27,060 bases of DNA from a virus: IMG/VR virus record IMGVR_UViG_3300025083_000184, positions 1 to 27,060 of that record. The stretch is one strand, 5' to 3'. The notes under the pieces are model-generated. The model worked only from the letters and a program-made list of their open reading frames with translations, was not told where the DNA came from and made no database searches. Below, one piece after another: positions 1,343 through 17,621 of the stretch. Every line of letters begins with the position of its first letter. Positions within the stretch are counted from its first letter, which is position 1. Both the position numbers and the translations under genes were made by a program.

Positions 1343-1522
1343 ATGACGGACCTAAGATTAACACCACGGGGTATGATGAGCACCGCTCGACCAGGCCAAA
1401 CTGAGATTCAGCGATTGGCGGCCCTTAAGAAGATGCAGAAGAGAGAGGATAAGATATCTATGATGACTTCAGCGATGAACCGCAAAGACATGATGGATGA
1501 GTTTAGACAACATTACAAGTAG
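1343..1522 (+). CDS. Small basic hypothetical protein, 59 aa
   Basis: A 59-residue, Met- and Lys/Arg-rich, helix-forming protein (QRLAALKKMQKRED, then MNRKDMMDEFRQHYK). The frame stays open upstream to an ATG at 1166, but that extension is low-complexity and AT-rich. I therefore start at the ATG at 1343, which has the short-leader promoter-like element described at 1331. MM at residues 11-12 could be a later start. Its last 20 bases overlap the 3' end of the convergent gene 1503-2153. I do not recognise the family. It is moderately likely to be real because composition changes sharply to coding-like at the chosen start. Confidence 0.5.
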   Translation: MTDLRLTPRGMMSTARPGQTEIQRLAALKKMQKREDKISMMTSAMNRKDMMDEFRQHYK

Positions 1523-2153
1523 TATAAAAATAGTTGTCGCTGTCCTCGGTAATCCACTTACCGTGCGACTCAGCATTGTATGTTTGGGTGCATACCTTGT
1601 AGTCAGGCTTCTTTGGAAAATCTTTCGTGGTGAATGATGGTTCAATCCATCGCACCCTATTGTTAGGTTGCAAGGCAAAGCATCCATTATCCAATATTAT
1701 TATATGATGTGACTTATGCTCGTGCGGACTCTCGCTTAGTGTGAGGTCAGCATTCTCATTTGTTTCACACGCCCATTGTATCGTACACAGGTATTCACCG
1801 TCATACCACTTACGGTCCTTCATGAATACTGATGATGTGGTGTCTGCAATATATGCTAGCTCTACAATAGAGAACGTCTTACTGAAGCTATTCCATAGGC
1901 ACAGCTGATGGAACGGCATATGCGGAACATCGTTAGGGTTCTTGTCTCTGTCTATCAGCGCAGAGCACGGAAGCTTATCCCTCATCACGCCATTCTCAAG
2001 AAGAACCTGAAACAGGGGCACTTGACCTGGAAGACATCTGACGGATACAATCCGCCCTAGGAAGAACTCACCGTGGTGAGATTTCATATCATATAAGTAT
2101 TCAGCACGTACCCATACATCTACGGGTGGGAAGCTAGATTCTATGTAAGCCAT
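1503..2153 (-). CDS. Hypothetical phage protein, 216 aa
   Basis: A soluble 216-residue protein without signal peptide. The N-terminal half reads like a small beta-barrel: a WVRAEYLYD strand, then FFLGRIVSV and FQVLLENGV strands and a conserved-looking KLPCSALID. The second half has aromatic and His-rich segments (KSHHIIILDNGCFALQPNN, RVRWIEPSF). I have a general impression of similar hypothetical proteins in marine phages but know no function. It is the last gene of the leftward operon. It overlaps the gene before it by 20 nt and the convergent gene 1343-1522 by 20 nt. Confidence 0.8.
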   Translation of the reverse strand: MAYIESSFPPVDVWVRAEYLYDMKSHHGEFFLGRIVSVRCLPGQVPLFQVLLENGVMRDKLPCSALIDRDKNPNDVPHMPFHQLCLWNSFSKTFSIVELAYIADTTSSVFMKDRKWYDGEYLCTIQWACETNENADLTLSESPHEHKSHHIIILDNGCFALQPNNRVRWIEPSFTTKDFPKKPDYKVCTQTYNAESHGKWITEDSDNYFYTTCNVV

Positions 2154-2316: not shown

Positions 2317-2486
2317 GATACTAGTTTGTAAGTTGTATTATTATCCGAGTTCCTATTTAGTATGTTAACCAGCTCCATCGCTTCGCCAGACCTTTCAATC
2401 TGAAGAATCTCGCTCATTCCATTTAGCAGGTACACGTTTATGGACTTCGGCCCTACGTATACTTCCTTTAATATCTTATACCCCAT
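2286..2486 (-). CDS. Small hypothetical protein, 66 aa
   Basis: A 66-residue protein with alternating beta-like segments (YKILKEVYVG, INVYLLNGM, TYKLVSCKIQDGTK) and a short helix (GEAMELVNILN). It resembles a small mixed alpha/beta fold but I recognise no family. ATG at 2486-2484 overlaps the 3' end of the M23 peptidase gene by 11 nt, indicating translational coupling in the leftward operon. Confidence 0.6.
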   Translation of the reverse strand: MGYKILKEVYVGPKSINVYLLNGMSEILQIERSGEAMELVNILNRNSDNNTTYKLVSCKIQDGTKI

Positions 2487-3138
2487 AGTCGTATCTGTCT
2501 TTGATTAATGTTAACGTATCCCCCTGTACTAGGTCAGGGTCTATAGGCACACCCAAGAACCGAACCTCGAAGTGTAGGTGTGGCCCTGTTGACCTTCCTG
2601 TCGAACCTATTACCCCTATCCCATCGCCTGCGCTCAGGGTGTCCCCTTCTTCTACTAGAAGCGACCAATGATGAGCGTAGTAAGTCTCAAGACCGTTGAA
2701 GTGTCTTACCACAACTAGATTACCGTACCCGCCATTGTAACCTCTCTCAGCATACCGCACTACTCCATCCCATACGGAGCGAGAGGTGTCTCGGTTACAT
2801 CCAGCGTAATCTATTCCGTAGTGCATCCTGCCCCATCTCCATCCATAGCCACTAGACACATGACCCGTTGAGTGGAACTCAAACGAATCCAAGTGTAGTG
2901 TTATGGAGTCAATGGTACTGTCGTGGGAATAGTGTATGTATGGACAGTGGTCATTATACATAGTGTCCAAAAAAAGAGGGGGCTCTTCAACCTCAACGGT
3001 ATCCAAGTCCCCCTCACCTACACATAAGAAGAAATCCGTATCAAAGGTATGTCTATTAGGCATAGACATGTATACATTAATCAACATTAGCCCCACAATA
3101 AAGGAGCATACAAGGGCGTTTAAAATAAAATTTCTCAT
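2476..3138 (-). CDS. Membrane-anchored M23 (LytM-type) metallopeptidase, likely endolysin
   Basis: A 220-residue protein. Residues 4-24 form an uncleaved-looking signal anchor, residues 25-90 a linker, and 90-200 the M23 peptidase domain. The zinc and catalytic residues are visible: H106 and D110 in MHYGIDYA, H156 in YYAHHWSL, and H187/H189 in GPHLHFEV. M23 enzymes cut peptide cross-links in peptidoglycan. The anchor would hold the domain on the periplasmic side, suiting a phage lysis enzyme, though a virion-associated role is not excluded. ATGA overlap (3135-3138) couples it to the small exported protein upstream. The holin and spanin-like genes lie some 7 kb away on the other strand, so lysis genes are split between two operons. 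Family assignment is strong, role is inferred. Confidence 0.9.
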   Translation of the reverse strand: MRNFILNALVCSFIVGLMLINVYMSMPNRHTFDTDFFLCVGEGDLDTVEVEEPPLFLDTMYNDHCPYIHYSHDSTIDSITLHLDSFEFHSTGHVSSGYGWRWGRMHYGIDYAGCNRDTSRSVWDGVVRYAERGYNGGYGNLVVVRHFNGLETYYAHHWSLLVEEGDTLSAGDGIGVIGSTGRSTGPHLHFEVRFLGVPIDPDLVQGDTLTLIKDRYDYGV

Positions 3139-3371: not shown

Positions 3372-3375
3372 CTCG

Positions 3376-3449
3376 TACTTCCAGAAGGACTCGAACCTTC
3401 AACCTACTGCTTAGAAGGCAGTTGCTCTATCCAGTTGAGCTATGGAAGC
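3376..3449 (-). tRNA. tRNA-Arg (anticodon TCT)
   Basis: A full 74-nt cloverleaf reads on the minus strand. Acceptor GCTTCCA pairs with TGGAAGT (one G-T pair). The D stem is GCTC/GAGC, the anticodon stem ACTGC/GCAGT with loop CTTCTAA (anticodon TCT, reads AGA and AGG), and the T stem GAAGG/CCTTC with loop TTCGAGT. The discriminator is A and CCA is not encoded, as is usual in Bacteroidota and many phages. AGA/AGG is the main arginine codon class in the capsid gene (about 16 of 25 by eye), so the tRNA would help late protein synthesis. Confidence 0.95.
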
Positions 3450-3662: not shown

Positions 3663-5261
3663 ATGAATTACCAACCAAAGAACTTGTCTTTCGATGACAA
3701 GGCACGAGAAAGCTTAGTTAGTGGCATTAATCAGATAGCTAAGGCAGTGAAGTCAACCCTCGGCCCAAGAGGCCGTACGGTCCTTATAGAATCTAACGAG
3801 CATACGCATGGCATTACAGTCACGAAGGACGGAGTCACCGTGGCTCGCTCCATCGACCTCCTCGACCCTGTCGAGAATCTCGCTGTTCGCATGGTAAGAG
3901 AGGCAGCCGATAGGACGGCCCTATCGTCTGGTGATGGAACTACAACAGCCATCGTATTGACGGAAGCCATTGTAATGGAGGGACTAAGGCTGATTGAGCC
4001 CCACCATAATATGACCGAGGTTATACGTGCAATTAACAAGGAAGCTAAAAAAGTTATAGAGTCACTAGAAAAGGAGTCTATAAAAATAAATCAACGTAGA
4101 CTACAGGATGTGGCTACTGTTTCTGCAAATAACGACGAGGAGATAGGTAAGGTTATTGCCGACACCTATAAGAAGGTAGGGTTGAAGAACGGGATTGTTA
4201 CCGTAGAGAAGAGTCAGACTCCTAGCACCACCTCTGAGGTTACTCAAGGTATACAGCTAGATAGGGGGTACACCTCTCCATTGTTTGTAAATGACCAGAA
4301 GCGGGACGAGTGCATACTTGAAGATGTGCATGTTCTTGTAACAGACCAAGAGATATCGAATCTAATAAGCGTAGAAAACGTTTTAAAGCAGGTTATTAAC
4401 GACCAGAAGAAGCTTTTGATTATCGGCCCGTGCTCAACTAACGTTATTAACACTTTAGCGGCCAATGTAGTCAGAAATGGACTAAAATTCTGCAATATTA
4501 TACCACCAGACTTCGGATATCGCAAGCACGAGCTGATGGGGGACATTGCATTGGCTCTTGGGGCTAAGTATTTCTCCGAGCAGACGGGTGATAACATACA
4601 ATTTGCCAATTTCAAAGACCTAGGGCACGCAGAGAAGGTAATTGTTAGTCGTGATAAGACTATTATTATCAGAAATGAGTCTCATAAGGAGGATATTAAG
4701 CAAAGAGTGGAGGAATTAGAGGTCCAAAGGGAAGAGGCAACTAAAAAACAAGACAAGGACTTCATTTCTAAGCGCATTGCGGGGCTCCAGGGAGCCATTG
4801 GAGTGATTTACGTAGGGGGTAACTCCGATATAGAGCAGAAAGAGCTGTATGACAGGGTAGATGACGCTGTATGTGCAGTTAATTCGGCTCTAGAGGAGGG
4901 AATATTGCCTGGTGGAGGGGTTGCTTTGTATGACAAGAGTTTTCATCTAGATACAGATGGAGGTCCTGAGGAGCAACGAGTTGCAAACAACGTTTTGTTT
5001 AACGCACTACGCTCTCCAATGAGTCAGATAATGAAAAATGCTGGATATGACGTTGACGAGATAATATCGGAAATTTTCTTTGACGGCACGCAGGGGTATG
5101 ACGTTAAGAACAATCAGTATGGGGATATGATTGAGATGGGAATTGTTGACCCCACCAAGGTGACGAAGAACGCATTGCAGAACGCAGTGTCGGTTGCCAC
5201 GACAATACTTAGTACAAATGCAATAGTAACTTTAGCAAGAACATATGAAAGCGGTGAATAA
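3663..5261 (+). CDS. groEL: Phage-encoded GroEL-type chaperonin (Cpn60)
   Basis: A full-length 532-residue group I chaperonin (host proteins are usually about 545). It would assemble as a double-ring ATPase that folds proteins in the cytoplasm with GroES. ATPase residues are intact: TKDG at 54-57, GDGTTTA at 90-96, the catalytic Asp in RVDDAV (D401, matching D398 of E. coli) and LPGGGVAL at 415-422. The equatorial halves look canonical. The apical domain (about 190-375) diverges: PGFGDRRK of E. coli reads PDFGYRKH, the segment after LLII reads GPCSTNVINTL, and the substrate-binding tyrosine/phenylalanine pair reads SPLF. The GGM-rich tail is absent. groES overlaps its last 17 nt. Divergence is greatest where substrates and GroES bind, suggesting specialisation for phage proteins. 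Confidence 0.97.
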   Translation: MNYQPKNLSFDDKARESLVSGINQIAKAVKSTLGPRGRTVLIESNEHTHGITVTKDGVTVARSIDLLDPVENLAVRMVREAADRTALSSGDGTTTAIVLTEAIVMEGLRLIEPHHNMTEVIRAINKEAKKVIESLEKESIKINQRRLQDVATVSANNDEEIGKVIADTYKKVGLKNGIVTVEKSQTPSTTSEVTQGIQLDRGYTSPLFVNDQKRDECILEDVHVLVTDQEISNLISVENVLKQVINDQKKLLIIGPCSTNVINTLAANVVRNGLKFCNIIPPDFGYRKHELMGDIALALGAKYFSEQTGDNIQFANFKDLGHAEKVIVSRDKTIIIRNESHKEDIKQRVEELEVQREEATKKQDKDFISKRIAGLQGAIGVIYVGGNSDIEQKELYDRVDDAVCAVNSALEEGILPGGGVALYDKSFHLDTDGGPEEQRVANNVLFNALRSPMSQIMKNAGYDVDEIISEIFFDGTQGYDVKNNQYGDMIEMGIVDPTKVTKNALQNAVSVATTILSTNAIVTLARTYESGE

Positions 5262-5523
5262 TTACGTAATAATCGAGAAGATTCAGGAGGAGCTCAAGAA
5301 CGAGAGCGGTTTGTTATTGTCCGAGGACGATGCACTACACTTCAGGTATAACAAGGGACTTGTTCTAGGGGCTGGAGACAAAGTAACCTCTGTAAAGGAG
5401 GGTGATGTTATTTATTATGACAAGAGTGCAGGGCACGATGCCATGTTTGACGGAATGGTTATCACCGTTATTCGTGACCGTGACGCAGTAATTGTATGCG
5501 CTCCTGATTCAGATTCTCAATAA
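5245..5523 (+). CDS. groES: Phage-encoded GroES-type co-chaperonin (Cpn10)
   Basis: A 92-residue GroES-like protein, the lid for the chaperonin chamber. It shows YVIIEK in the first strand, a mobile-loop region at about 15-33 with the hydrophobic triplet LLL (23-25) that corresponds to IVL in E. coli, KGLVLGAG, the KEGDVIYYDK strand typical of the barrel, and the final DAVIV strand. The dome-loop part is shortened. It starts inside groEL (17-nt overlap), so expression is coupled. The order groEL before groES is the reverse of the usual bacterial groES-groEL order. Its 3' end overlaps the convergent regulator gene by 56 nt. Identity is supported by both the motifs and the partner gene. Confidence 0.85.
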   Translation: MKAVNNYVIIEKIQEELKNESGLLLSEDDALHFRYNKGLVLGAGDKVTSVKEGDVIYYDKSAGHDAMFDGMVITVIRDRDAVIVCAPDSDSQ

Positions 5524-10277: not shown

Positions 10278-11010
10278 TAGGGATAAGTGGTCAACCTTTA
10301 ATTTGAAGGAGGCAGTTCCATACATGTTCTGCATATTCCTTGCGCTAATGCTAATAAATAAGTGTGAGCAGGAGAAGGAGTATCAGCAGGAGATACAGCG
10401 AATTGAAAACAATAACGTTGCGTTATTAGACACTATCCGAAACTACATGGATGACGATGGGATGTACGCTGCTGATATCAGGGCACTGAACCTAAAGTTA
10501 GATGAATTAGGCGACAGCATATCAGTAGATAGGTCTCAGCCACCTGTTACTATAACCAATCAGACAACAGAGATACGAGAGACTATTGAAGTCCCTTCGT
10601 TTATATACGACACGATTACTATAGTAAACACTGATACGTTCTACAAGCAGATATACGTGGAGCAGACTGATACCTTCGGCAATAGCAATAGGTCCATCGA
10701 GGTTACGATACCAACTGATGGCGTGGTAGTGGCGGATGCCATAATAAACTTGGAGCAGGACATATGGGTTGAGAACACTGTGGAGCAGAACAATAAGACG
10801 GGTGAGGTGTTCTTCAGAATGAGAACTGACTACCCAGGAGTTACGTTCAATAATGCAAGTGCTATACTAGTAGACCCGAAGCAACTTGTAAAGGTACGCA
10901 AATCTTTTGGTGTTGGTTTTCAGACGGGTATAGGCATCACAACAACGGGCCAAACAAGGCATTACATAGGTGTGGGTATTCACTATTCGCCTAAGTTTTT
11001 ACAATGGTAA
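10270..11010 (+). CDS. Spanin-like inner-membrane coiled-coil protein with beta C-terminus, 246 aa
   Basis: A 246-residue protein. Residues 14-31 (EAVPYMFCIFLALMLINK) form an N-terminal membrane segment. Residues 33-75 make a charged coiled coil, followed by a Thr/Val-rich extended region. The last 35 residues (FGVGFQTGIGI then HYIGVGIHYSPKFLQW) form an alternating, Gly/aromatic outer-membrane-like hairpin. The plan recalls DUF6808-type proteins of Bacteroidota phages. Neighbouring holin genes suggest an envelope-spanning lysis protein linking inner and outer membranes. The longer ATG at 10243 would give a 35-nt overlap; the ATG at 10270 gives an 8-nt overlap and is preferred. Confidence 0.65.
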   Translation: MHNRDKWSTFNLKEAVPYMFCIFLALMLINKCEQEKEYQQEIQRIENNNVALLDTIRNYMDDDGMYAADIRALNLKLDELGDSISVDRSQPPVTITNQTTEIRETIEVPSFIYDTITIVNTDTFYKQIYVEQTDTFGNSNRSIEVTIPTDGVVVADAIINLEQDIWVENTVEQNNKTGEVFFRMRTDYPGVTFNNASAILVDPKQLVKVRKSFGVGFQTGIGITTTGQTRHYIGVGIHYSPKFLQW

Positions 11011-11031
11011 AAAAGTATTAATTTTAAGGGC

Positions 11032-11292
11032 ATGAAACTGATAACGAAAGAGACCGTTGTCGGCATGCCAATGTCAACCTTTGTATGGATAATGGGAATT
11101 ATATTCTCAGTATTCGTGGCATACTTTGAATTGAAAGCTGGAATAGATGAGGCCAAGAAGATGCCTCCGCAGGAGATATCTGCTGATGAGATTAAAGTTT
11201 CTCTCGACGGAATCCAAAAACAGCTTGACTTAATGAATAATAAAATCGACAAACTAGATGAAAGACTTTACGAGCTCAATTCTGGAGAGTAA
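11032..11292 (+). CDS. Membrane protein with C-terminal coiled coil, 86 aa (lysis accessory)
   Basis: An 86-residue protein with a membrane segment at about 14-34 (MSTFVWIMGIIFSVFVAYF) and a C-terminal coiled coil (IQKQLDLMNNKIDKLDERLY). This resembles hemolysin XhlA-type or Rz-type accessory proteins, which sit beside holins and help damage the membrane or connect it to the wall. It follows the spanin-like gene by 21 bases and overlaps the holin gene by 35 bases. Assignment rests on architecture and context, not on a specific motif. Confidence 0.7.
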   Translation: MKLITKETVVGMPMSTFVWIMGIIFSVFVAYFELKAGIDEAKKMPPQEISADEIKVSLDGIQKQLDLMNNKIDKLDERLYELNSGE

Positions 11293-11989: not shown

Positions 11990-12559
11990 ATGCAATCAAT
12001 TCATTCGTTTTTAGTAAAACCTAAAGGCGGACGGAGATACAACAACACTAAAAGCATAGGTGACGTTGATTTTATTATAAGTATATCTCCTGAAGACCAT
12101 ACGGTTACAAATAGAGAGGCAATCGTTGTCTCAGTTCCAGTTAATTATGAGGGAGACGTTAAGGTTGGAGATACAATCTTAGTTCATCACAATGTGTTTA
12201 GAACCTATCACGACATGAAGGGTAGGCATCGAAGCGGCAAGAGTTTCTTCAAGGATGACTTATTCCTAGTTGACCACGACCAATTCTACCTATACGATAA
12301 TGGAGATGGATGGAAGGCTCCAGGCAAGTATTGTTTTATAGAGCCTGTTGCTCCTGAGAACAATTGGTTGATTAGTTCTTTCTCGGAACAACCTCTTGTG
12401 GGTAAGATTCGCTATATTAATAATGAGCTATTAGAAATGGGCTTGAGGGTTGGTGACAGAATATCATTCAGTCCTGATAGCGAATATGAGTTTAGGATAA
12501 ACGAAGAGAAGCTTTATAGGATGTTCACTGAAAACATTACGATTCATTGGAAAAGATAG
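11990..12559 (+). CDS. Protein with two tandem GroES-like beta-barrel patterns, 189 aa
   Basis: A 189-residue protein of no known function to me. Its sequence can be read as two successive GroES-type barrels. First: SFLVKPKGG (first strand), IVVSVPVNYEGDVKVGDTIL (the GxV...VKVGDxV signature), then FKDDLFLVDHDQFYLY (final strand). Second: YCFIEPVAP, then PLVGKIRYINN, GLRVGDRISFSPDSEYEFRI, EEKLYRMFTENITI. The spacing of these elements parallels GroES. A long basic loop (HHNVFRTYHDMKGRHRSGK) sits where the first barrel carries its dome part. The phage also encodes GroEL and GroES, so a dedicated co-chaperone or capsid-folding role is possible. A non-chaperonin beta protein remains possible. Confidence 0.6.
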   Translation: MQSIHSFLVKPKGGRRYNNTKSIGDVDFIISISPEDHTVTNREAIVVSVPVNYEGDVKVGDTILVHHNVFRTYHDMKGRHRSGKSFFKDDLFLVDHDQFYLYDNGDGWKAPGKYCFIEPVAPENNWLISSFSEQPLVGKIRYINNELLEMGLRVGDRISFSPDSEYEFRINEEKLYRMFTENITIHWKR

Positions 12560-12726
12560 AAAGGTGGCTTCAGTGCGGATGCAAACTAAAAAGAATAAAA
12601 GGAAAGTATAGATGGCAGAGATGCCCTGACGCAGTATGGATTTATGAGCAATACGAAAAAACAGGAGACTGGAGTTGGCAAGACAAGTACAATAAACACT
12701 TCAGAGATAAAGAAAAAGATTATTGA
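12547..12726 (+). CDS. Possible overlooked small Cys/Trp-rich protein, 59 aa, TTG start
   Basis: In the gap before the small terminase gene one frame is open: EKIERWLQCGCKLKRIKGKY, then RWQRCPDAVWIYEQYEKTGD and WSWQDKYNKHF. It has a C-x-C pair, a third Cys and many Trp, and looks like coding sequence rather than noise. There is no ATG; the only good start is TTG at 12547, inside the preceding gene. It overlaps the small terminase by 83 bases, so one of the two readings in the overlap could be a shadow. I treat it as a candidate only. Confidence 0.35.
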   Translation: MEKIERWLQCGCKLKRIKGKYRWQRCPDAVWIYEQYEKTGDWSWQDKYNKHFRDKEKDY

Positions 12727-12955
12727 TGCGGGCTACAAGGCTGTGCAGCAACTTATCAAGGTGGCTGAGGAGAATATCATTAAGCCAGACCCTGATGATG
12801 AGCTAGCAGCCGACAGACTAAAGAATGCTGCTGCGTCAAAGAAGCTAGCCATATTCGATGCGTTTGAGATACTATCAAGAATCGAGGCGGAGAAGGAGGC
12901 ACTTAACGAGATTAAAAGTTCAAATAGAGGATTTGCTGAACGAAGGTCAAAATAG
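12644..12955 (+). CDS. Probable small terminase subunit, 103 aa
   Basis: A 103-residue helical protein immediately before the large terminase gene. It begins with a Ser/Thr-rich flexible stretch, continues with IKKKIIDAGYKAVQQLIKVA, a DPDDELAADRLKNAAASKKLAIF segment and an acidic helix (DAFEILSRIEAEKEALNEI). The segment with DxELAADRxKNAAxxKK and the gene position match small terminases I recall in phages of this type. It would recognise viral DNA and help the large subunit start packaging. No HTH is obvious. The large-subunit frame starts within it. Confidence 0.7.
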   Translation: MSNTKKQETGVGKTSTINTSEIKKKIIDAGYKAVQQLIKVAEENIIKPDPDDELAADRLKNAAASKKLAIFDAFEILSRIEAEKEALNEIKSSNRGFAERRSK

Positions 12956-15176
12956 CTTATATCGAGTTGTAGACTCAGGTATTCCCAAGCAAGTAATAAG
13001 GCAAAAGAACAAGGGGAGAAGCTGGGTGTATGGCTACGACGAAAAGTATGATATCATAATTATTTCTCGTGATGGTACGCTAGGGGAGGTGTATAACATT
13101 AATGGCCTAATTATAGGCTTACCAAAAGCACCCAAAGAGGTGCACTCAAGAAGCAACAAAAAGGACGAGCAATATTGGGAGCGTAAGGAATACCCCAAAC
13201 AGTTAAAGAGAATAAGGTCAATATTCCAATGGAACGAGATGTTATCCGATTTTAAATCGATGTGGGTTGACTACATAGAGCAGGAGTTCGACAATAGGGA
13301 GGGTGGCTTCTGGTATATGAACCACGGCAAGCCAACCTATCTTACAGGCTCGCACTACATGTACTTGCAGTGGACTAAGATTGACGTTGGCTATCCTGAC
13401 TTCAGGGAGGCTAATAGGATATTCTATATATTTTGGGAGGCGTGCAAGGCGGATAAGAGGTGCTTTGGTATGTGCTACCTAAAGATTAGGCGGTCAGGGT
13501 TCTCGTTTATGGGGGCGTCAGAGTCTGTTAATCTTGGAACGCTGGCTAAAGACTCTAGGCTTGGAGTGCTGTCAAAGACAGGGGGTGATGCTAAGAAACT
13601 ATTCGTAGATAAGATTGTACCAATAGCCAATAACTATCCTTTCTTCTTCAAGCCTATTCAGGATGGTATGGACAAGCCAAAGACAGAGTTAGCTTTTCGT
13701 GTTCCTGCATCTAAGATTACTAAGAAGAACATGCACGAGGTCATGGACGATGATATGGATGGCCTCGACACCACCATTGACTGGAAGAACACAGCAGACA
13801 ACAGCTACGATGGTGAGAAACTGAAACTACTAGTACACGACGAGAGTGGTAAGTGGGAAAAGCCTGAGAATATTTTAAACAACTGGCGTGTGACCAAGAC
13901 CTGCCTGAGGCTAGGTAGTCGTGTCGTTGGTAAGTGCATGATGGGCTCTACTTGCAACGCACTAAATAAAGGGGGTAATAACTTTAAGAAACTATACACG
14001 GACTCTGACCCTTCCACTAGAAACCCTAACGGTCAAACTAAGAGTGGCTTGTACTCTTTGTTCGTTCCAATGGAATGGAACTTCGAGGGGTATATCAATA
14101 AGTTTGGGTGGCCTGTGTTTGAAAACCCCACCACATCCTTAGAGGGTGTTGACGGAGAGATGATATCTACGGGTGCTATCACATATTGGGATAACGAGGT
14201 AAAGTCCCTTAAGAACGACGCAGATGCCCTGAACGAGTTCTATCGTCAGTTCCCTAGAACAGAGTCTCACGCCTTTAGGGATGAGAGTAAGTCATCCATA
14301 TTCAACCTAACCAAGATATATCAGCAGATAGACTACAACGACTCGGTTATAAGAGACCACTATGTTACGAGGGGTAAGTTTTATTGGAAGGATGGGCCTG
14401 ATAGCAAGGTTGTTTGGAGTCCTGATAGTAGGGGTAGATTTTTGGCGTCCTGGATTCCACCTAAACATCTTCAAAACAAGATTGTGGAGAAGGGCGGGAG
14501 GAAAAGACCAGGTAATGAGCATATGGGCTCTTTTGGATGTGACCCCTATGACATATCAGGTACTGTTGGTGGAGGTTCTTCAAATGGCTCACTGCATGGG
14601 CTCACTAAGTTTCACATGGACGAAGGGCCATCCAACGAGTTCTTCTTGGAGTATATAGCAAGGCCACAGACCGCCGAGATATTCTTCGAGGATGTGCTTA
14701 TGGCATGTATATTCTATGGAATGCCAATACTTGCGGAGAATAACAAGCCAAGACTATTATATCACTTTAAGAATAGAGGATACAGGGGGTACTCTATGAA
14801 TAGACCCGACAAGGCCCTTAACAAGCTCTCTAAGACCGAGAAAGAGCTAGGCGGCATACCTAACTCATCTGAGGACATAAAGCAGTCTCACGCAGCAGCT
14901 ATAGAGTCTTATATTGAAAAGCACGTAGGCCTAGATACTACAGGTGAGCATAGGGAGGCTGGCGATATGGGTTCTATGCCTTTTATAGTTACGTTGGAAG
15001 ACTGGGCTAAGTTTGATATAAATAATCGTACAAAATACGATGCGTCGATTAGTTCTGGATTGGCTATAATGGCTAATCAAAGACACCTATATAGACCAGA
15101 GGTTAAGCAATCAAAAATAAAGATTAACTTTGCAAGGTATAATAACAAAGGGAACACAAGCGAATTGCTGAACTAA
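12858..15176 (+). CDS. terL: Large terminase subunit (packaging ATPase-nuclease)
   Basis: Up to 772 residues. YLTGSHYMYLQWTKIDVGYP and the following DFREANRIFYIFWEA are typical of large terminases of crAss-like phages. The ATP-binding loop at about 209-221 (IRRSGFSFMGASE) is a deviant Walker A. Walker B is KLLVHDESG at about 323-331. The RNase H-like nuclease domain starts at GCDPYD (about 559-564). The first ATG (12858) gives an Arg-rich N-terminus lying in the small-terminase frame and may be an artefact; a TTG at 12933 (747 residues, 23-base overlap) is a good alternative. It packages DNA into the head and cuts it. The portal gene follows with no gap. Confidence 0.9.
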   Translation: MRLRYYQESRRRRRHLTRLKVQIEDLLNEGQNSLYRVVDSGIPKQVIRQKNKGRSWVYGYDEKYDIIIISRDGTLGEVYNINGLIIGLPKAPKEVHSRSNKKDEQYWERKEYPKQLKRIRSIFQWNEMLSDFKSMWVDYIEQEFDNREGGFWYMNHGKPTYLTGSHYMYLQWTKIDVGYPDFREANRIFYIFWEACKADKRCFGMCYLKIRRSGFSFMGASESVNLGTLAKDSRLGVLSKTGGDAKKLFVDKIVPIANNYPFFFKPIQDGMDKPKTELAFRVPASKITKKNMHEVMDDDMDGLDTTIDWKNTADNSYDGEKLKLLVHDESGKWEKPENILNNWRVTKTCLRLGSRVVGKCMMGSTCNALNKGGNNFKKLYTDSDPSTRNPNGQTKSGLYSLFVPMEWNFEGYINKFGWPVFENPTTSLEGVDGEMISTGAITYWDNEVKSLKNDADALNEFYRQFPRTESHAFRDESKSSIFNLTKIYQQIDYNDSVIRDHYVTRGKFYWKDGPDSKVVWSPDSRGRFLASWIPPKHLQNKIVEKGGRKRPGNEHMGSFGCDPYDISGTVGGGSSNGSLHGLTKFHMDEGPSNEFFLEYIARPQTAEIFFEDVLMACIFYGMPILAENNKPRLLYHFKNRGYRGYSMNRPDKALNKLSKTEKELGGIPNSSEDIKQSHAAAIESYIEKHVGLDTTGEHREAGDMGSMPFIVTLEDWAKFDINNRTKYDASISSGLAIMANQRHLYRPEVKQSKIKINFARYNNKGNTSELLN

Positions 15177-17621
15177 ATGAAAGATGTCAAAGTAAACATT
15201 CCGTCAATGTACTTCCCTAGTCAGTTTGCCTCAGACGAGGAAAAGGCTAGTTTGGAGTATGGATTAAAAATAGGTCAAGCAATTCAATATGAATGGTTTC
15301 GAAGGGACGGCAACAATGGTAGGTATTACGATAGGTATCGAAACTTCCACAAACTAAGACTATATGCTCGTGGTGAGCAGTCGGTGGCTAAGTACAAAAA
15401 AGAACTTGCCGTAGATGGAGACCTTAGCTATCTAAACTTAGACTGGACACCTGTACCTATACTTCCAAAGTTTGTTGACATTGTGGTTAATGGTATGTCT
15501 AGTAGACCATTTACCGTTAAGGCAGAAGCGCAGGACGCAATGTCTGCCGATGAAAAGAACGCATACCAAGAGATGGTTAAGGCGGATATGATTGCTCAGC
15601 CTGTTCTTCAAAAGATAAAAGATGAGTTTGGTGTTGACACATTTAACTTAGAACCTGAGCAGATACCCGCAAACGATGATGAGCTAAACATTCACCTTCA
15701 GTTGAATTACAAGCCTGCGATAGAGATTGCTGAAGAGACGGCGATTAATACCATTCTTGAAGACAACGACTATGATGACACTAGGAAGCGTATAGATTAC
15801 GACTTGGCGGTGTTAGGGATGGCGGTTGCAAAACATGAGTTTAACCCTGGGTCTGGAGTTGACGTTAAGTATGTAGACCCTGCGAACGTAATTCATAGTT
15901 ACACGGAAGACCCTAATTTTAACGATTGTTTCTATTGGGGAGAGATAAAGACAGTTCCAATCACTGAGCTTGTCAAAATTGACACTTCTTTGAAACAAGA
16001 AGACTTAGAGAAAATATCCAAGTACAGTCAAAATTGGAATAATTATTATAACGTTCAGCAGTATCATCAGAGTGATTCATTTTACAGAGATACCGCTACT
16101 TTGTTGTACTTCAACTACAAGACAACCAACACATTTAAGTACAAGAAAAAAATATCTGAAGGTGGTGCTGTAAAGATGGTAGAAAAGGACTCTGCGTTTA
16201 ATCCTCCGCCAGAGATGCTAGAGGAGGGAAGGTTTGAAGTAATCGAAAAGACTATTGATGTTTGGTATGATGGCGTAATGGTTATGGGTACTGATATTGT
16301 TCTTAGATGGGATATGATGGAAAACATGGTTAGGCCAGCATCCGCATCTCAGCACGCTTTATCTAACTATGTTGCCGTTGCCCCAAGAATGTACAAGGGT
16401 AATGTAGAATCACTAGTTAGACGTATGATTCCATACGCTGACCTCATTCAGATTACACACCTAAAGATTCAGCAGGTTATGAATCGAATGACTCCTGACG
16501 GAGTATTTATTGATGCGGATGGCCTTAGCGAAGTAGACCTAGGAACAGGCGCGGCATATAATCCTGAAGATGCACTAAGGCTATACTTTCAAACAGGTTC
16601 TGTTATTGGCAGGTCGTACACTCAAGATGGGGAGTTTAACAACGCTAGAGTACCTATTCAACCCATTACAGGTCATTCCAGTCAAAGCAAATTACAAGCA
16701 TTGCTAGGTAATTACAATTACTACCTAGATATGATTCGAAGTGTGACAGGTCTGAATGAAGCTAGAGATGGCTCAAGCCCTGACCCCGACGCATTAGTCG
16801 GAGTTCAGAAACTAGCCGCTGCTAATTCAAACACTGCCACTAGACATATTATGGAGTCTAGTATGTTTATTATAAAGAGATTGTCTCAGGCGATATCTTG
16901 CAGAATAGCAGACATACTTGAGTACTATGAGTTTGCAGAAGAGTTTGCAATGCAGATAGGGAAGTATAATGTCTCTATGTTGGAGGACATCAAAGACCTG
17001 TATATGCGTGACTTTGGTGTATTCATACAAGTCGCACCAGATGAGGAGCAAAAAGCAATGCTTGAGCAAAACATTCAGATGGCGTTAAGTAAGAATGACA
17101 TTAACCTTGAGGATGCTATTGACATAAGAGAGATAAACAACACTAAGGTTGCGAATCAACTTCTCAAGATAAAAAGAACGAAAAATAAAGAGGCTGAGCA
17201 ACAGCAGCAAATGGCTCAACAGCAAATGCAAATGCAGATGCAGATGCAGTCTCAACAGCAGGCAGCACAAAGCGCTCAGCAAAAATTATCTATGGAGCAT
17301 CAAGTTACTCTTAGAGAGCTTCAGGCAGATGTGGCTTTTCAAATTGAGAAGTTAAAGAACGAGGCTCAAATAAAGAGTCAGTTAATGCAGCAACAATTTC
17401 AACACGATTATCAGATAGCCATGGTTAAAGAGCAAAGTCTTGACCAAAGAAACAAAGAAAAGGAAGAGGCTAAGGATGAAAGAATCGACAGACAAAACAC
17501 TCAGCAATCAAGGTTAATTGACCAAAGAAAGAAGGGTGGGGCTCCTATTGATTTTATGGAGGAGTCTGAAGACCTTAACAAAGTTGCAGAGGGTGTAGGA
17601 GACCCATTCGCCCCAAAATAA
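15177..17621 (+). CDS. Portal protein, 814 aa
   Basis: An 814-residue protein starting immediately after the terminase stop. Long size, position between terminase and scaffold, the IDYDLAVLGMAVAKHEFNPG and VDPANVIHSYTEDP segments and a long C-terminal helical region fit portal proteins of short-tailed crAss-like phages. The portal forms the dodecameric DNA channel of the head. From about residue 650 it is Lys/Glu-rich coiled coil, with a Gln/Met-rich stretch at about 668-705 (QQQMQMQMQMQSQQQ) and a charged tail. Such tails can sit inside the head as a barrel. No frame problem seen. Confidence 0.9.
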   Translation: MKDVKVNIPSMYFPSQFASDEEKASLEYGLKIGQAIQYEWFRRDGNNGRYYDRYRNFHKLRLYARGEQSVAKYKKELAVDGDLSYLNLDWTPVPILPKFVDIVVNGMSSRPFTVKAEAQDAMSADEKNAYQEMVKADMIAQPVLQKIKDEFGVDTFNLEPEQIPANDDELNIHLQLNYKPAIEIAEETAINTILEDNDYDDTRKRIDYDLAVLGMAVAKHEFNPGSGVDVKYVDPANVIHSYTEDPNFNDCFYWGEIKTVPITELVKIDTSLKQEDLEKISKYSQNWNNYYNVQQYHQSDSFYRDTATLLYFNYKTTNTFKYKKKISEGGAVKMVEKDSAFNPPPEMLEEGRFEVIEKTIDVWYDGVMVMGTDIVLRWDMMENMVRPASASQHALSNYVAVAPRMYKGNVESLVRRMIPYADLIQITHLKIQQVMNRMTPDGVFIDADGLSEVDLGTGAAYNPEDALRLYFQTGSVIGRSYTQDGEFNNARVPIQPITGHSSQSKLQALLGNYNYYLDMIRSVTGLNEARDGSSPDPDALVGVQKLAAANSNTATRHIMESSMFIIKRLSQAISCRIADILEYYEFAEEFAMQIGKYNVSMLEDIKDLYMRDFGVFIQVAPDEEQKAMLEQNIQMALSKNDINLEDAIDIREINNTKVANQLLKIKRTKNKEAEQQQQMAQQQMQMQMQMQSQQQAAQSAQQKLSMEHQVTLRELQADVAFQIEKLKNEAQIKSQLMQQQFQHDYQIAMVKEQSLDQRNKEKEEAKDERIDRQNTQQSRLIDQRKKGGAPIDFMEESEDLNKVAEGVGDPFAPK

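Follow-up and report, generated by a model that had tools for sequence, protein, structure and literature searches.

Homologs of both GroEL and GroES have already been described for some phages (PMC7185714), and the chaperonin of phage AR9 has been demonstrated to be a single ring (PMC9598537). In chloroplasts, mixed lids with seven domains are assembled from Cpn10 together with Cpn20, most likely in the proportion of one Cpn10 to three Cpn20 (PMC4242682, PMC5780408). Tandem co-chaperonins of this kind have been described as unique to chloroplasts (PMC5780408), and a related Cpn20 is known from the Plasmodium apicoplast (PMC3542282). The groEL-groES pair of the cultured Flavobacterium phage Elemovirus is already annotated. 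Gene order is reportedly linked to GroEL phylogeny in the main paper on viral chaperonins, that of Marine and colleagues in the ISME J of 2017.

The DNA analyzed here, a stretch of 27,060 bases from an IMG/VR virus record (hereafter the window), appears to encode a three-gene phage group I chaperonin system, in which GroEL is accompanied by a single-domain lid (GroES1) and a tandem lid (GroES2), and which probably serves virion morphogenesis. The probability of this reading is put at roughly two in three. The initial annotation described the groEL-groES pair and missed both the groES2 gene and an eroded ring-ring interface in GroEL; both alter the picture of the machine.

The groEL-groES1 pair and its relatives

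The pair and its relevant segments are located as follows:

3663-5261, + strand: groEL, phage group I chaperonin large subunit, 532 aa, without a GGM tail (PF00118, phrog_5725, conserved catalytic residues)
4275-4286, + strand: GroEL apical segment SPLF (SPYF in E. coli; Y203 to L), with L in 50 of 57 phage GroELs (alignment)
4425-4445, + strand: GroEL apical segment GPCSTNV, the region before helix I (alignment)
4506-4529, + strand: GroEL apical segment PDFGYRKH (PGFGDRRK in bacteria; PDB alignment)
5245-5523, + strand: groES1, single-domain co-chaperonin, 92 aa (PF00166; AF2 model resembling Cpn10 structures)
5287-5346, + strand: mobile loop of groES1, its hydrophobic triplet lying in GLLLS; across the family alignment G22 and L25 do not vary

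The ORF calls confirm that both genes are intact, overlap by 17 nt and lie in the order groEL-groES, as first reported. Judged by its full-length homology and its ATP-site residues, the groEL product is a group I chaperonin (GroEL/Cpn60). PF00118 matches it at 213 bits with 487 of 490 positions covered and phrog_5725 at 461 bits, and it passes the GroEL subfamily models NF009487 (512 bits) and NF000592 while falling under the cut-off of the GroEL equivalog TIGR02348 (483 vs. 582 bits), which marks it as a divergent member of the family and not a bacterial ortholog. The conservation of ATPase residues proposed in the initial annotation is borne out by the alignment, in which T30, G32, D52, G53, G86-T91, S151, D398, G415-G416, and D495 are conserved; the GDGTTT motif is kept. 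The three apical segments singled out there are present as quoted and differ from host-type residues in the alignment, and at positions that contact substrate or GroES in E. coli the window GroEL carries Y203 to L, L234 to E, and V263 to A. The GGM tail is indeed missing, the C-terminus reading ARTYESGE with no GGM repeats.

The smaller protein is a GroES/Cpn10, with a Cpn10 domain (PF00166 at 34.8 bits against a cut-off of 21.1; phrog_3188 at 51 bits) and a mobile loop bearing a hydrophobic triplet. Its AF2 model, of modest confidence (pLDDT 69), has the shape of Cpn10 structures (1wnr, Z 10.6). The roof region is 9 residues shorter than that of E. coli GroES. Roof loops are absent from T4 gp31 (PMC6318259), and an open roof of that type was considered as a phage adaptation and dropped: host-type GroES is shortened as well, by 9 residues in Campylobacterota and 5 in Bacteroidota, so that the short roof of groES1 is not diagnostic. 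The groEL-groES pair is real and of a known kind.

Several further features lie upstream of the pair. A tRNA-Arg (TCT) at 3375-3449 (- strand), the only match in an Rfam search, occupies the stretch between divergent genes immediately ahead of groEL. The Bacteroidota promoter motif TANNTTTG showed no excess over chance and did not occur directly upstream of groEL. An M23 peptidase, which has a hydrophobic stretch at its N-terminal end and may be related to lysis, is encoded at 2476-3138 (- strand), and a 216-aa ORF at 1503-2153 (- strand) matches phrog_3704 'ferredoxin', of the host-takeover/auxiliary class, at 231 bits.

A scan of viral contigs yielded 57 loci with GroEL relatives, to which the phages ctfjg026 and Elemovirus add two for a total of 59. 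A GroES-like ORF follows groEL on the same strand in all 59, and with the window the genes are adjacent and co-directional in 60 of 60. The spacing between them ranges from -44 (overlap) to +1256 nt, and small ORFs frequently separate the two; adjacency is thus conserved and overlap is not, and the 17-nt overlap is ruled out as a conserved device. In a subset of relatives the gap measures 471-474 nt and holds a conserved 170-aa ORF (MSHSNCRKCDKEF...), found at 10574-11089 of locus L014 and in similar form in L019, L021, L024, L032, L035, and L052; it is possibly a mobile zinc-finger/endonuclease gene. The relatives of the window's terminase and portal belong to phages of Flavobacterium, Cellulophaga, Maribacter, and Tenacibaculum, making a Bacteroidota host likely.

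Quick maximum-likelihood trees bear on the ancestry of GroEL. The closest cellular GroEL is at most 41% identical to that of the window, as against 53-88% for members of the viral clade. The window clade forms one side of a branch with an SH-aLRT of 95 in one tree and 100 in another, and a clade uniting it with the GroELs of Bacteroidota hosts is rejected (AU test, p=0.006). By these comparisons the phage GroEL is an old viral lineage, which has probably long evolved in phages of Bacteroidota. Long branches make the placement of Elemovirus and Panino uncertain. Recent captures do happen in other phages, as the GroELs of Bacteroides phage DAC20 and Vibrio phage SRILMA group inside bacterial clades. 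For the window, the idea that a host groE operon was recently captured, or that the contig was misassembled, finds nothing in its favor beyond the identity of the genes, and its probability is negligible: dozens of independent contigs share the arrangement, and the low cellular identity together with the AU test rules out recent host capture. The initial annotation had foreseen that a near-identical host placement would tell against it, and GroEL has none. Its picture of an old, phage-adapted pair with re-patterned apical contacts and no recent host origin accordingly stands. Its premise that finding both genes together is unusual in phages does not, given 59 other viral loci with a pair in the same order, among them the annotated cultured Elemovirus; rarity and gene order were both over-stated, as carrying the pair is the rule throughout this viral family and has precedents outside it.

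GroES2 and the packaging genes

A third gene of the putative system lies within the packaging block:

11990-12559, + strand: groES2, 189-aa homolog of tandem (two-domain) co-chaperonins of the Cpn20-like type, a short way ahead of the terminase gene (phrog_13932, AF2 model, Foldseek, VIA)
11990-12304, + strand: groES2 N-terminal domain, about residues 1-105, with the mobile-loop-like segment TKSIGDVDFIISIS (weak profile colinearity; fold resembling the first half of Cpn20)
12308-12559, + strand: groES2 C-terminal domain, residues 107-189, Cpn10 fold (profile E 6.8e-10; VIA Z 9.2 to 4v4o_P)
12858-15176, + strand: terminase large subunit, context (phrog_6681, 615 bits)
15177-17621, + strand: portal protein, context (phrog_6547, 505 bits)

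GroES2 matches phrog_13932 'co-chaperonin GroES' at 75 bits and PF00166 only below the cut-off, although PF00166 exceeds it in the C-terminal domain of the phi18:3 and phi38:1 homologs. The AlphaFold2 model (mean pLDDT 77.7, pTM 0.74) has as its best Foldseek match in the PDB the Cpn20 chain 7ekq_R (E 1.5e-5), followed by 7ekq_Q (E 2.4e-4), both of which are tandem co-chaperonins from the ClpP complex of Chlamydomonas. VIA-align places 162 residues, spanning 1-188, on Cpn20 (Z 10.7), and single GroES chains align to residues 107-189 alone. Against a profile of 77 bacterial GroES, the C-terminal half scores E 6.8e-10 (reversed control 0.15) and the N-terminal half a weak E 0.0016 (reversed control 0.087); neither Pfam nor a profile comparison with groES1 detects the N-terminal domain. 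The C-terminal domain is thus secure while the N-terminal domain depends mainly on its predicted fold, and the model places two Cpn10 folds in one chain. Domain 1 keeps a mobile-loop-like segment, which reads KTESGLEL in phi18:3, and in domain 2 a hydrophobic triplet is not clearly seen. A limited literature search found no paper on a tandem phage GroES; this is weak evidence, and a tandem lid beside a phage pair appears to have gone unrecognized until now. In Bacteroides phage DAC20, the 206-aa hypothetical protein DAC20_146 (L246, 4687-5307) weakly resembles Cpn10 over its C-terminal half (PF00166 at 15.4 bits, below cut-off) and is possibly a further tandem GroES from a different phage group.

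The position of groES2 is shared widely. The genomes in which it precedes terL and portal at a short distance are, besides the window, ctfjg026, Elemovirus, Panino, and phi38:1, together with the three Pachyviridae phi18:3, phi19:3, and phi13:2, a siting that ties GroES2 to morphogenesis. Between GroES2 and TerL the window has a 103-aa ORF (12644-12955) that overlaps the called TerL start and is a possible small terminase or fusion; ctfjg026 and phi18:3 also have a small gene at this position, and in Elemovirus and phi38:1 a longer TerL (about 876-879 aa) follows GroES2 directly.

Single-domain GroES occurred in 20 of 20 records with GroES2 in a first set and in 14 of 15 further records picked for GroES2 alone, the exception being a 44.7-kb fragment. 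Together these make 34 of 35 virus records, counts that are not independent since the records share ancestry. The complete genome of phi18:3 encodes a single-domain and a tandem-length GroES and no GroEL, so that the lids need not go with a GroEL of the phage's own, a point against the three-gene reading. Its record carries an MS/MS proteomics note on many virion proteins and on neither GroES, which suggests that the GroES proteins are an assembly factor more than a part of the virion.

This neighborhood also lends itself to a different explanation, in which GroES2 is no lid at all, having the GroES fold but being put to use in packaging DNA or assembling the portal, with only GroES1 serving GroEL. 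The fold is found in non-chaperonins too, such as alcohol dehydrogenases, and in different genera and families alike its gene keeps its place next to terL and portal, away from groEL-groES1. Such a role is nevertheless unlikely, as the top structural match is a tandem co-chaperonin, Cpn10 profiles match, GroES1 is nearly always encoded with it, and its N-terminal domain retains the loop-like segment.

The ring-ring interface and the proposed machine

The interface between rings was compared in 56 viral and 80 bacterial GroELs at eight ring-ring contact positions of E. coli GroEL. Conservation in the bacterial set is good at the contacts K105, A109, R452, E461, S463, and V464. In the viral set it is not: 33 of 56 have E at position 105 and 39 of 56 have D or E at position 109, and entropy over the eight positions is 2.68 bits as compared with 1.23 in bacteria. 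The two sets are equal in overall divergence (mean identity 68% vs. 66%) and in equatorial entropy (1.08 in both), and the difference lies above every random draw of equatorial positions (0/100,000). Entropy in the viral set is low at the ATP site (0.16 bits) and in the intra-ring stem loop (0.22 bits), both of which stay conserved. Positions 452, 461, 463, and 464 are those mutated in a single-ring GroEL variant (PMC5575113). AR9 GroEL shows losses at ring-ring residues comparable to those of the window family, and DAC20 GroEL, which groups with bacteria, mostly retains these residues.

Since the ring-ring contacts drifted while other equatorial residues did not, a single ring or a rebuilt interface is predicted, and the eroded contacts argue against a canonical double ring. 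It may still be that GroEL remains a double ring, its interface rebuilt and fast-evolving rather than lost. Co-evolution can make contacts variable, and the divergent phage EL chaperonin makes double rings that separate with ATP (PMC7185714). Acidic residues at 105 and 109, however, fall where the rings meet, and similar changes accompany the single ring of AR9; retention of two rings is accordingly a minority reading, though one of some weight.

In the proposed machine, groEL and groES1 would be co-transcribed, and a GroEL heptamer, single-ringed or with a rebuilt interface, would catch non-native phage proteins of the late phase, virion proteins presumably among them. With the use of ATP, the client would be enclosed under a lid of GroES1 and/or GroES2. 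A role in virion assembly is favored because groEL-groES opens a rightward gene block and GroES2 sits within the packaging block.

How the two lids would share this work is less certain. They may be alternative homo-oligomers for different clients or for different GroELs, of phage or host. Homo-oligomers of chloroplast Cpn10 alone or of Cpn20 alone can be active in vitro (PMC4242682), the groES1 and groES2 genes stand about 6.5 kb apart in the window, and phi18:3 has both lids without a GroEL; near-constant joint presence would follow equally from a mixed lid, and we hold separate lids to be possible at somewhat less than even odds. A mixed lid in the manner of Cpn10 and Cpn20 is also possible. 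In its specific, chloroplast-like form, three tandem GroES2 and one GroES1 would supply seven domains to cap a single-ring phage GroEL. Single-ring GroEL is functional once two or three of the seven lid sites are weakened (PMC5575113), and weak-loop GroES2 domains would loosen the lid and allow client release from a single ring. A 3+1 lid would hypothetically fit both the make-up of the chloroplast lid and the need of a single ring for weakened contacts, yet joining GroES1 and GroES2 in one lid is the least certain step of the scheme, and this arrangement is a long shot.

The tandem architecture is fixed beside packaging genes in several groups of cultured marine phages and offers a tractable system. 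With it one can ask how a seven-fold barrel accommodates even-numbered lids, how a chaperonin operates when a canonical second ring is missing, and what virion proteins depend on it.

Comparison with known systems

Caudoviricetes sp. ctfjg026 (MW202828) shares the module and its order (GroEL 56%, TerL 72%), but the virus is uncultured and its GroES2 is annotated as a hypothetical protein. Flavobacterium Elemovirus (NC_055854) has the same three genes (gp43, gp44, gp30), the groEL-groES order and a tandem-length GroES beside terL. It differs in that its GroEL is 36% identical, the pair lies on the strand opposite the structural genes, and gp30 is annotated as a plain GroES. The Cellulophaga phages phi38:1 (Pervagoviridae) and phi18:3 (Pachyviridae) each have a single-domain and a tandem-length GroES; in phi38:1, however, groES is upstream of groEL with one gene between, and phi18:3 is without GroEL.

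Phage T4 also encodes a GroES, gp31, and groES1 shares its shortened roof, but T4 relies on the host GroEL. The chaperonins of phages EL, OBP, and AR9 are likewise phage GroELs, with ring-ring residues lost in AR9 as here; they reportedly work without a co-chaperonin (PMC9598537), whereas the window has co-chaperonin genes. Chloroplast Cpn20/Cpn10 (7ekq; PMC5780408, PMC4242682) offers the parallel of two Cpn10 folds per chain with a single-domain partner. Identity to Cpn20 is about 14% in the structural alignment, so divergent that the likeness is one of architecture, seen in a predicted fold, and the hetero-oligomer known from chloroplasts is hypothetical for the phage. Taken together, these comparisons place the pair itself among known systems, and the new part is the three-gene set with its tandem lid and eroded ring interface.
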